In this document: positions 4,090 to 12,432 of the stretch, piece after piece
Layout of the letters: the number at the start of each line of letters is the position of its first letter
Numbering within the stretch: position 1 is the stretch's first letter
DNA from: Candidatus Falkowiibacteriota bacterium
GTDB taxonomy: Bacteria > Patescibacteriota > Patescibacteriia > Patescibacteriales > VMTK01
Assembly: GCA_013791585.1 (NCBI GenBank)
Contig: VMTK01000062.1
Coordinates: 1-41,855 of the forward strand
Length of the DNA: 41,855 nt
Reading direction: 5' to 3'
Made by a program: the position numbers and the translations under genes
The notes under the pieces: model-generated
The model's input: the letters and a program-made list of their open reading frames with translations, nothing else
Told to the model about the DNA's origin: nothing
The model's database searches: none

Positions 4090-4989
4090 TTATTCAATGA
4101 CCGCTGATTTTTCCGGCAAAGTAAGCGGTGCTTTTTCTGATGATTTGAGTTTAGGAGGAACAACCACTACCGCAGTCCCGATGTTTACTCCATCTTTCCA
4201 GAAACGGACCTGAACATAGGGTTTGGTTGTAACCTCTATTGAAGTGGTTCCAAAACCGGTGCCTGAAGCGCCGGAAATTCCAGCTGCTTCTTTCTCGCCA
4301 ATCACTCCGCTGCCGCCGCCGCCGATACCAATGTGCCAATCCGAACTTTCGGGTTTTTTTAAAGCTGAACTGGCTAGTAGCTCCACATAGTCCGCCCCAA
4401 TGTCCATGCCTATGGTTTTGGCTATGGCCATTGCGCCCTCTGTGCGCTGTTTTGGGGTTACAATAACCCCGAGAGTAGCTAATTTTTCCCCTTTTACATC
4501 TCCCGAACCGACAATAGCTATTGCATCTGTCGGCGGATACTTTTTGAATATATCTAAAGACAATTCAACATATTCAATTTTCTCCTGTTCGCCGGTTTTT
4601 ACCCAGACTTCATTCAGGACTATGGGTGTGACATTCCAGTTCACGCCATCTTCTGCCTTCCACCCGCCGAAATATTGCATGGGACCAGTACTGCCTGGCA
4701 CCCCGATCTGCGGAAATTGGCGGTTGATGTATTCACTTTCATCAATATAAGTGTTGTGAGAGTCAAACGAAAGTCCCAGCGACAATTCGTTTGCGATATT
4801 TGGGTTGTTTATCACCCCCGCTGCCGAACTATTATCCGGCGCATTCACCACTCCAACCACCGCGCCTGATTGAGCGCTGTTGTTATTTGTTGTGTCAGCC
4901 CAAGCCGTTGGCGTCATTGCCAATAAACACAGGCAACACAAACTAATTACAAAACAGTTTTTTACCATCTTTTCCTTTTTCTCTTTCAT
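4090..4989 (-). CDS. Exported glycine-rich protein, unknown family
   Basis: 299 residues from ATG 4989, chosen over an in-frame ATG at 5037 because AAAGGAG lies about 8 bases upstream of 4989 and because the sequence then begins with a basic stretch and a hydrophobic signal (FVISLCCLCLLAM) cut after TAWA. The mature N-terminus is Asn/Ser/Ala-rich, followed by a mixed domain (WKAEDGVNWNVTPI, DAIAIVGSGDVKGEKL) and a Gly-rich stretch IGIGGGGSGVIG near residue 220. I cannot assign a family. It is the first gene of the promoter-to-terminator unit 5233-3224, and all three products are exported, so a joint surface role is likely. Confidence 0.7.
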   Translation of the reverse strand: MKEKKEKMVKNCFVISLCCLCLLAMTPTAWADTTNNNSAQSGAVVGVVNAPDNSSAAGVINNPNIANELSLGLSFDSHNTYIDESEYINRQFPQIGVPGSTGPMQYFGGWKAEDGVNWNVTPIVLNEVWVKTGEQEKIEYVELSLDIFKKYPPTDAIAIVGSGDVKGEKLATLGVIVTPKQRTEGAMAIAKTIGMDIGADYVELLASSALKKPESSDWHIGIGGGGSGVIGEKEAAGISGASGTGFGTTSIEVTTKPYVQVRFWKDGVNIGTAVVVVPPKLKSSEKAPLTLPEKSAVIE

Positions 4990-5291: not shown

Positions 5292-5370
5292 AAACAAAAA
5301 AAAACCAAACAAATTGCCCGGCTTGCGAATATTTTTTTTGAGATAAAAAAAGAGTTGATTGAAGGGGTTT
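5292..5370. repeat. About 78-base direct repeat, copy 1 (3' end of the ncRNA locus)
   Basis: Matches 7247-7324 at most positions: ACCAAACAAATT, GAATATTTTTTT and ATAAAAAAAGAGTTGA are shared in order. Here it forms the 3' end of the structured locus. The other copy lies directly downstream of tRNA-Thr. Confidence 0.75.
5296..5321 (-). terminator. Terminator-like end of the ncRNA locus
   Basis: On the minus strand CCGGGCAATTTGTTTGG, a G-U tolerant self-complementary stem, is followed by nine T residues. A second T run directly follows the outer stem at 5351-5364, so there are two tandem stop signals. Confidence 0.6.
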
Positions 5371-5767
5371 GTTGGGTGGGATTTGTTTTGTGTGGGTGGG
5401 TTGGGAATTTGAGAAGTGTTGCGGATGCGGTTCTGAACCATTTTTCAATGATGCAAAACTGCATCCGCAATACTATCTTCATTATCCCTGCTTCAATCAA
5501 CTCTATGATATTGTAAAGATTTTGATTGAGAGTAGATTTTTTTTGTGTTTGGGGTTTATTGTTGATTGCGTTTACTTTGATAAGTTATCCGCTAATAAAC
5601 CTTTTTGATTGTGATTGAAGTTTTTTTATTTTTTTGTTGTGATTTTTTAGGGTGGGGTTTTTTGAGAAAGATGTTTGGGTATGGTTTTAAATCCGTTTAG
5701 ATTCAAAACTATACCCATCATCTTATGCTCATTCCCTTGTAAAAAACTTCTATCTACTCTCAATCTT
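5296..5767 (-). ncRNA. Candidate structured noncoding RNA locus with two tandem modules
   Basis: About 470 bases without a credible gene. On the minus strand, module 1 begins with GATTGAGAGTAGAT (5752-5765), which pairs perfectly with its complement at 5524-5537. Inside is a hairpin (5670-5722, arms GGGTATAGTTTT and AAAACCATACCC), then a long C/A-rich strand with CCCCACCC. Module 2 repeats the plan: a 14-bp perfect outer stem (5491-5504 with 5351-5364), an inner hairpin (5418-5472, GCGGATGC arms), a C/A-rich strand with two CCCACCC motifs, then T7. Sequence is shared between modules too: AGGGA.AATGA before the hairpin, AGTTTTG in the arm and CTTCTCAAA after it. A promoter lies at 5774-5801. 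I do not recognise the family; it is not tmRNA, 6S, SRP RNA or RNase P RNA by eye. Confidence 0.55.
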
Positions 5768-5773
5768 GCTTTT

Positions 5774-5801
5774 ATATTAGCATACTTAAATAATATGTCA
5801 A
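5774..5801 (-). promoter_or_regulatory. Promoter of the ncRNA locus
   Basis: Minus strand TTGACA (5796-5801), 16-base spacer ending in ATGC, then TAATAT (5774-5779), a consensus -35 with an extended -10. The predicted start near 5767 falls at the 5' edge of the module 1 outer stem. Confidence 0.65.
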
Positions 5802-5891
5802 GTCCGCTAACATTAGCTAATTTTGACTAACTTAAACTTACTTTAATTTAAAATGCGCGGAGTTATCCACAGGGGTTGCGAATTATTCTTT

Positions 5892-7138: not shown

Positions 7139-7246
7139 ATTGAATCACTCTCTTGCAAGTTTTAATTAAAAAGAATGGAATTAGTTATAGAGTTAATCAT
7201 TATTAATAACCTCCTTAACTGCTTTAACATAACCTAAATAAGGCTA

Positions 7247-7324
7247 AAAACAAAAAAACCAAACAAATTTGTCCGGTCCATGAATATTTTTTGAAAATAA
7301 AAAAAGAGTTGAGAGAAGGTGGTT
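7247..7324. repeat. About 78-base direct repeat, copy 2 (downstream of tRNA-Thr)
   Basis: Homologous to 5292-5370. It lacks the partner of the 14-bp outer stem and the internal hairpins, so only the 3' part of the ncRNA module is present, serving as the tRNA trailer. Confidence 0.75.
7251..7276 (-). terminator. Terminator of tRNA-Thr
   Basis: Minus strand CCGGACAAATTTGTTTGG stem followed by TTTTTTTG, about 65 bases past the tRNA 3' end. Confidence 0.65.
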
Positions 7325-7340
7325 TATAGCCGTTTTCATG

Positions 7341-7413
7341 AGCCGTTGCGCGGATTTGAACCGCGGACCTACTCCTTACCATGGAGTTGCTCTGCCAGCT
7401 GAGCTACAACGGC
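7341..7413 (-). tRNA. tRNA-Thr, anticodon GGU
   Basis: The minus strand folds as a full cloverleaf. The acceptor is GCCGTTG/CAACGGC with discriminator T, and the D arm is GCTC/GAGC. The anticodon stem ACTCC/GGAGT has loop ATGGTAA (anticodon GGT), and the T arm is CGCGG-TTCAAAT-CCGCG. No CCA is encoded (ATG follows). It decodes ACC and ACU. Confidence 0.95.
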
Positions 7414-7526
7414 GTTTCGGATGTCGGATGTCGGATTTCGGATGTCGGATTTCGGATGTCGGATTTCGGATGTCGGATTTCGGATGTCGGATGTCGGATG
7501 TCAGATGTCGGATTTCGGATGTCAAA
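7414..7526. repeat. Tandem CGGATGT/CGGATTT word repeat
   Basis: Fourteen-base units of CGGATGTCGGATTT with point variants fill the gap between the tRNA and the upstream TPR gene. The reading frames across it are repetitive translations of the word and not genes. Confidence 0.9.
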
Positions 7527-7580
7527 TATAAATTTTAAAAAACGCTACCCTTTAATAATAATCGTTATGCGTTATGCGAT

Positions 7581-11558: not shown

Positions 11559-11591
11559 ATTATTTTATTATTACATGCTTATAAGGTTGCT

Positions 11592-11726
11592 GTGTTTTCG
11601 TGTTTTCGTGTTTTCGTGTTTTCGTGTTTTCGTGTTTTCGTGTTTTCGTGTTTTCGTGTTTTCGTGTTTTCGTGTTTTCGTGTTTTCGTGTTTTCGTGTT
11701 TTCGTGTTTTCGTGTTTTCGTGTTTT
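11592..11726. repeat. Tandem GTGTTTTC x about 17
   Basis: About 17 perfect 8-base units abut the scpA stop codon (TAA complement at 11725-11727) and fill the scpA-scpB gap. In the mRNA it is (GAAAACAC)n. The same unit occurs inside rplD and in the tail of the gene at 41625. There are no spacers, so it is not CRISPR. Confidence 0.97.
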
Positions 11727-12432
11727 AATTTTTCATAATCTCCATGTCCCCGAACATAACCTCCTGCGTAACTATTACATCCTTTTGCTTAATCAGCTCC
11801 AGCATTGCCAAAAAACTGACAATTATTTCCGTCTTGGATTTGGCATGCTGCAAGATTCTATTAAAATTAAACTTAATTTTATTAATCAGCATCTGCCGGA
11901 TAGACAATATTTTATCTTCTATGCTTATTTTATGCTCTAATTTTTCTTCCTTTATTTTTTCCAGCGGTCTTATGCCGCCAATCAGCTCCTTGAAAACATT
12001 TTTCATGTTTTCGGCAGTAAGTTTTTTCGGGGGGGAGAAAAAATTTAAATTATTTAAAATTAACTTGCGGTTAAATTCCCTGCCAAACATAAATTTCTTT
12101 TTTCCCAGCAAAAAATCAACACCCTTGGCCGCTTCCAAAAATTCTTTATACATTTTTAATTGATTCTCCAGTTCTTTAATCTCTTCTTCCTCCTCTCCGG
12201 CGCATAAATACGGCAAAAGCGCCTTGGATTTAATCAAAAGCAAGCGCGCCGCCACAACTAAAAAGTCAGCCATGTCATCCGGACTGATTTTATCCGTTAT
12301 TTTTATGTATTCAATGTATTGATCCGCTATTTTCGCCAAACTTACTTCAGCAATATCCATCTCTTCCTTTTCTATCAATTGCAGAAGCAGGTTTAACGGG
12401 CCTTGGAATTTTTCTATTTTGATGTCTATCAT
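11725..12432 (-). CDS. scpA: Segregation and condensation protein A (kleisin)
   Basis: 235 residues. The N-terminal kleisin motif KIEKFQGPLNLLLQLIEKEE (residues 5-24) is followed by DIAEVSLAKIADQYIEYI and FLVVAARLLLIKSKALLP. The C-terminal winged helix ends in IVSFLAMLELIKQKDVIVTQ. ScpA bridges the SMC heads in the condensin complex. The protein ends exactly where the GTGTTTTC array starts. Confidence 0.95.
   Translation of the reverse strand: MIDIKIEKFQGPLNLLLQLIEKEEMDIAEVSLAKIADQYIEYIKITDKISPDDMADFLVVAARLLLIKSKALLPYLCAGEEEEEIKELENQLKMYKEFLEAAKGVDFLLGKKKFMFGREFNRKLILNNLNFFSPPKKLTAENMKNVFKELIGGIRPLEKIKEEKLEHKISIEDKILSIRQMLINKIKFNFNRILQHAKSKTEIIVSFLAMLELIKQKDVIVTQEVMFGDMEIMKN

Follow-up and report, generated by a model that had tools for sequence, protein, structure and literature searches.

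Introduction

OLE, GOLLD and ROOL are large ornate bacterial RNAs, and the RNA family described here resembles them in being long, structured, free-standing and first known by comparative genomics, but it has no Rfam match to them, follows another plan and has a much smaller structured core. CsrB is a Csr/Rsm sponge RNA carrying an array of GGA hairpin loops; a protein-sequestering role would be possible for the new family as well, although this array is missing and the variable part is A/C only. The overall architecture is closer to that of 6S RNA (RF00013), likewise a free-standing gene whose product is a rod with a closing stem, a large internal loop and an apical hairpin, but the new family differs in giving no RF00013 match, in its one-sided A/C strand of up to 242 nt, in its DnaA-box promoter and in its tandem modules. 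In the literature found, we consider the closest functional precedent to be CcnA of Caulobacter crescentus, a replication-linked noncoding RNA located at the origin of the chromosome and presumably CtrA-activated; its 182-nt gene holds three weak DnaA boxes (PMC8959179). Both are noncoding RNAs tied to replication control sites; the likeness is one of function and implies no homology, and the new family, unlike CcnA, has strong single boxes that precede the promoter, at dispersed sites.

Regulatory RNAs of the Patescibacteria are almost undescribed: our literature search on this group found none, and searches on Patescibacteria, Parcubacteria or Falkowbacteria combined with RNA motifs returned nothing relevant. 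The stretch analysed here is, on comparative sequence evidence, a real and previously undescribed noncoding RNA gene of a group of ultra-small bacteria. It represents a strongly covarying, free-standing family from uncultured bacteria without detected 6S RNA or Hfq, and its helically phased box provides comparative evidence that the replication initiator may regulate noncoding RNA transcription. The DnaA-box promoter furthermore makes it possible to test cell-cycle control directly in cells whose genomes are very small. The novelty lies in the RNA family, while its mode of action could still be of a known kind.

Promoter, modules and terminator of the window locus

The minus strand of the window (the whole stretch of DNA analysed, 41,855 nucleotides) carries at 5294-5767 a promoter-driven gene consisting of two tandem structured modules followed by an intrinsic terminator; all features of the gene given below are on this strand. 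The sigma-70-type promoter, TTGACA-16-TAATAT with an extended -10 TG, occupies 5774-5801 and places the predicted start at about 5767, at the edge of the outer stem, whose 5' strand spans 5752-5765. An AT-rich upstream element, GCTAATGTTAGC (5806-5817), recurs at many loci by inspection and has the family form TAATATTA, located directly upstream of the -35. The terminator region (5294-5339) contains the terminator itself at 5324-5302, followed by a T-run. A reading of the sequence without database searches (the sequence-only reading) had proposed both the promoter and the terminator as well as the start at the stem edge, and all three agree with the present analysis.

In module 1 (5524-5765) the outer stem P1 is formed by 5752-5765 and 5524-5537, and P2 by AGAAGTTTTTT (5741-5751) and AAAAAAACTTC (5617-5627). 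The 5' strand of P3, GGGAATGAGCATAAGATG, lies at 5719-5736 and is followed by the apical hairpin P4 (5677-5716) and by an A/C-rich, G-free single strand (5624-5663), the 3'-terminal bases of which overlap the 3' strand of P2. An extra hairpin between the 3' strands of P2 and P1 (5553-5603) is absent from most relatives. Module 2 (5351-5504) is a tandem copy without a promoter of its own. Its outer stem, 5491-5504 paired with 5351-5364, is a perfect 14-bp helix as in module 1, with a P4 hairpin at 5419-5470 and an A/C-rich single strand at 5365-5402. That the two modules are homologous, as previously suggested, is borne out by covariance model R2, which recovered module 2 at E 9.6e-10 although module 2 was not among its sequences. 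A second module duplication is seen in a relative (L070, G230:C21), where two P4 hairpins of almost the same sequence follow one another.

Both modules fold far more stably than shuffled sequences (z -10.4 for module 1 and -9.2 for module 2), as does the whole region (-131.7 kcal/mol against a shuffle mean of -68.1, z -13.1), and in none of these comparisons was a shuffle equally stable. No convincing open reading frame covers the RNA region, the listed ones being short and missing from relatives, in line with the gene-free stretch first reported. Overlapping reading frames at the homologous loci G001 and G047 are not evidence for coding, because A/C-only DNA is stop-free in every frame by composition. 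Above the gathering threshold, Rfam 15 gave only tRNA-Thr in the window, and at permissive E-values no family recurred over the RNA in the window and 16 homologous loci; the initial failure to place the RNA in a known family is thereby upheld.

Separately, the terminator region (5292-5370) is about 80% identical to 7246-7325 (minus strand), just downstream of tRNA-Thr (7340-7413, minus strand) and, as seen from the RNA, beyond a gene for a DUF4143/AAA_14 ATPase. Judged by sequence, this likeness is a duplication.

Homologous loci and covarying structure

A BLASTN search against 60 related genomes gave three clear homologues with one module each (G001, G002 and G051), while first matches in G005, G048, G014 and G034 proved on reading to be chance promoter or A-rich matches. 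Covariance model R1, built from 4 sequences, added G059, G074, G047, G078, G012 and G077; R2, from 9 sequences, found G213, G349, G242, G393, G337, G355, G361, G315 and G230 elsewhere in the class; and R3, from 14 sequences, added G302, G358 and G137. Model matches in G066, G128, G313, G339, G347 and G045 were rejected on reading, and a doubtful one in G443 was likewise left out of the accepted set. A pattern scan of named genomes confirmed three family loci, in G002 and G051 (Candidatus Falkowbacteria) and in G047; its remaining matches and one viral contig gave no R3 match. Loci were accepted only after each sequence was read, which resulted in 26 loci in 22 genomes, all from one class of Patescibacteria (the order of Ca. 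Falkowbacteria and others). The covariance-model search of related genomes suggested by the sequence-only reading thus did return homologous structured loci. The family occurs in about 10 of 109 genomes of the window's own order and in 7 of 12 in the order of G337, and a 380-genome sample of the phylum gave no match besides the window genome; the genomes are incomplete, and this patchy distribution may be undercounted by the models, which lose long-armed members because false P1/P2 partners inside the arm get matched.

The family plan is a rod, P1-P2-P3-P4, opened on one side by an A/C strand of 15-242 nt. P1 closes the molecule, P2 (GAAGTTT/AAACTTC) follows a few bases on, and then come P3 and the long P4 hairpin; almost all length variation is 3'-sided, between P3 and P2. 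Short words noticed earlier in both modules correspond to homologous elements of this plan, AGGGA being the 5' strand and CTTCTC the 3' strand of P3, and AGTTTTG part of P4. In alignment A8, 27 of 41 pairs vary in both partners, giving 68 two-sided cells against 18.2 in shuffles, a value reached by 0 of 500 shuffles; sliding the partners yielded at most 17 cells. The A/C linkers were cut before alignment and one or two bases near P2 were taken out in some rows, and A8 was additionally hand-trimmed in a few rows by removal of a P4 base pair or a short insertion. The less edited alignment A6 agrees, with two-sided change at 21 of 43 pairs. The structural conservation that the two perfect 14-bp outer stems had hinted at is consequently seen across the family, and by its covarying pairs across diverged homologues the locus is a new structured RNA family.

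A phased DnaA box upstream of the promoter

The classical DnaA box is TTATCCACA. Its reverse complement, TGTGGATAA, lies at 5863-5871 (minus strand), 70 bp upstream of the -35 of the window promoter, a feature that the sequence-only reading did not mention. Such a box is found within 130 bp upstream of the -35 at 19 of 21 loci (13 perfect, 6 with one mismatch) and is missing there at G059 and G047; the frequency in background windows is 0.36% for a perfect box and 3.2% with one mismatch allowed, and the statistics include related loci. The orientation is identical at all 19 box-bearing loci. The distances from box to -35 are 16, 26, 36, 47 (five loci), 58, 59, 60, 67, 68, 68, 69, 70, 78, 82 and 93 bp, that of G078 having been set by hand with the correct -35. 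These distances follow the helix with a period of 10.9 bp (R 0.79, p ~5e-5 with the period scanned; p 5e-4 after collapsing same-family loci with similar distances), which is the pattern expected if a bound protein touches RNA polymerase from one helix face. Perfect boxes number 26 in the window genome, whereas the reversed control occurs once, which marks the motif as a genuine site of this organism. With a box conserved in position and helically phased, the promoter has the sequence character of a DnaA-regulated one, and the motif makes DnaA most likely the protein bound.

Boxes were also observed elsewhere. Three genes that appear LexA-like on reading (L124, L141 and L142; G000 contigs C7 and C52) each have a perfect DnaA box near the start; at L124 a consensus promoter follows downstream of the box after 48 bp, a spacing that keeps the phase seen in the RNA family. 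Short open reading frames for hydrophobic peptides of ~25-37 aa, possibly a small membrane peptide family, sit behind a similar TAATATTA and TTGAC promoter at L134 1500-1720 (G000:C37) and at L030 near 1501 (G021), with a DnaA box 68 bp upstream of the -35 in L134. Clusters of boxes at L144/L145 (G000:C62:18996-19024) and L127-L129 (G000:C26) are candidate replication origins or titration sites. Adjacency of the window locus to the origin is unlikely, as the window carries no replication genes and the box cluster is on contig C26.

Possible modes of action

We give an even chance to the reading that the gene belongs to a free-standing, trans-acting RNA family controlled through the DnaA box, with a protein-binding rod and a free A/C arm. 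Transcription would start at the edge of P1 and stop at the intrinsic terminator, and the transcript would fold into the rod P1-P2-P3-P4, two such modules being joined in one transcript in the window. The protein at the box, most likely DnaA, would control the promoter from a fixed helix face relative to RNA polymerase, presumably by activation rather than repression, thereby tying the RNA level to the replication initiator. The RNA would most likely act in trans, its conserved rod binding a protein partner and its arm being kept unpaired to offer a platform for binding or to act as a linker that does not interfere. Since the promoter almost always has a DnaA box on a fixed side of the DNA, the product may be an RNA regulator with a link to the replication machinery. 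More tentatively, and with somewhat less than an even chance, it could be a lineage-specific DnaA-controlled RNA that links the initiation of replication in Patescibacteria to a core process, be it transcription, RNA turnover or translation, by means of a scaffold bearing the pairing-free A/C arm; a long arm of this type is not known from any described RNA family. The patchy distribution and the boxless loci G059 and G047 count against the free-standing, DnaA-controlled reading, and no partner gene for the RNA was found.

Alternatively, the RNA could be 6S/Ms1-like and bind RNA polymerase, the rod with its large bubble mimicking melted promoter DNA. The closing stem, internal loop and apical hairpin of a free-standing rod fit this proposal, as does the result that 6S RNA (RF00013) was recognised in 0 of 14 carrier genomes with a control positive in known bacteria, a result that may just reflect failure of the Rfam model in this phylum. 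Still, the bubble is extremely asymmetric, with its 15-242 nt on one side, and none of the 16 homologous loci gave a 6S match even at permissive E-values, leaving this alternative unlikely.

The composition of the arm bears on a second alternative, an antisense-type regulator whose unpaired C-rich stretches, present as runs in both modules, pair with ribosome sites of mRNAs. Over 22 loci (1388 nt) the arms are 52% A, 38% C, 9% U and 1% G, compared with 12-23% G and 24-35% T in the loci around them. They range from 15 to 242 nt; that of G047 is largely made of repeated CAACCAAA-like units, hairpins stand in place of the arm in G302, and G137 and G315 have local hairpins within it. CACC words occur 21 times against 40.5 expected and CAC is also depleted; although the long G047 repeat accounts for part of it, this deficit speaks against a functional role of CCCACC. 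The C/A-rich strand of the original description is therefore real and family-wide, while its CCCACC motif, though found in the window, is not conserved. As the arm varies in length, sequence and hairpins, what selection appears to maintain is its failure to pair with the rod, and not a motif. The pairing with Shine-Dalgarno sites of the neighbouring operon once envisaged for the C-rich motifs is not supported, given the CACC deficit and neighbours that differ at almost every locus; moreover, the arm, being almost U-free, cannot pair with the A residues of such sites. Together with the variable arm length and the failure to detect Hfq (PF17209) in the 14 carrier genomes, control positive, this makes an antisense role improbable. 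The same Hfq result renders an Hfq sponge unlikely, and this candidate was rejected. A Rho sponge is unlikely to apply to all members, as arms can be 15-18 nt.

The free-standing character of the gene, part of the preferred reading, follows from its surroundings, as the neighbours (among them mnmA, msrB, a flippase, typA and a DUF4143 ATPase, the last named by Pfam match and the others from reading translations) are unrelated between loci except among close relatives. Among the five copies in G074, identity amounts to 98% over the RNA, 91% for the part between the box and P1 and ~60% outside, indicating that box, promoter and RNA form a single unit of copying and conservation. These dispersed copies, the patchy distribution and the tandem modules of the window and G230 would suit a small repeat of selfish or mobile kind that brings along a promoter and a terminator, but no transposase is common to the loci, most genomes have one copy and the phase of promoter and box is kept over deep divergence, and we judge this reading as improbable as an antisense role.

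Slightly more doubtful still is a DNA-level replication element, that is, a secondary DnaA site or origin-like unit with a transcript of local use, e.g. as primer. A DnaA box followed by AT-rich DNA does precede the transcript, but each locus has a single box, five copies are dispersed in G074, the RNA helices covary, the genomic contexts are unrelated, and the window is not the box cluster of contig C26. Finally, a cis-acting leader (riboswitch or attenuator) is very unlikely: although in the window a gene for an exported protein is found downstream of the RNA, the terminator and a second perfect promoter (5233-5206) stand between them, downstream genes vary and are in some cases on the opposite strand, and, with neighbours unrelated, no conserved class of downstream gene was found.

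The exported-protein gene itself (4093-4986, minus strand), which has no Pfam match, is preceded at 5233-4987 (minus strand) by a perfect 12/12 sigma-70 promoter and a leader of ~200 nt with inverted repeats. Intergenic arrays of short direct repeats (CCGACATCCGAAAT-like; FSCFRV-coding repeats) were also observed in the window, at ~7413-7540 and 11590-11740.
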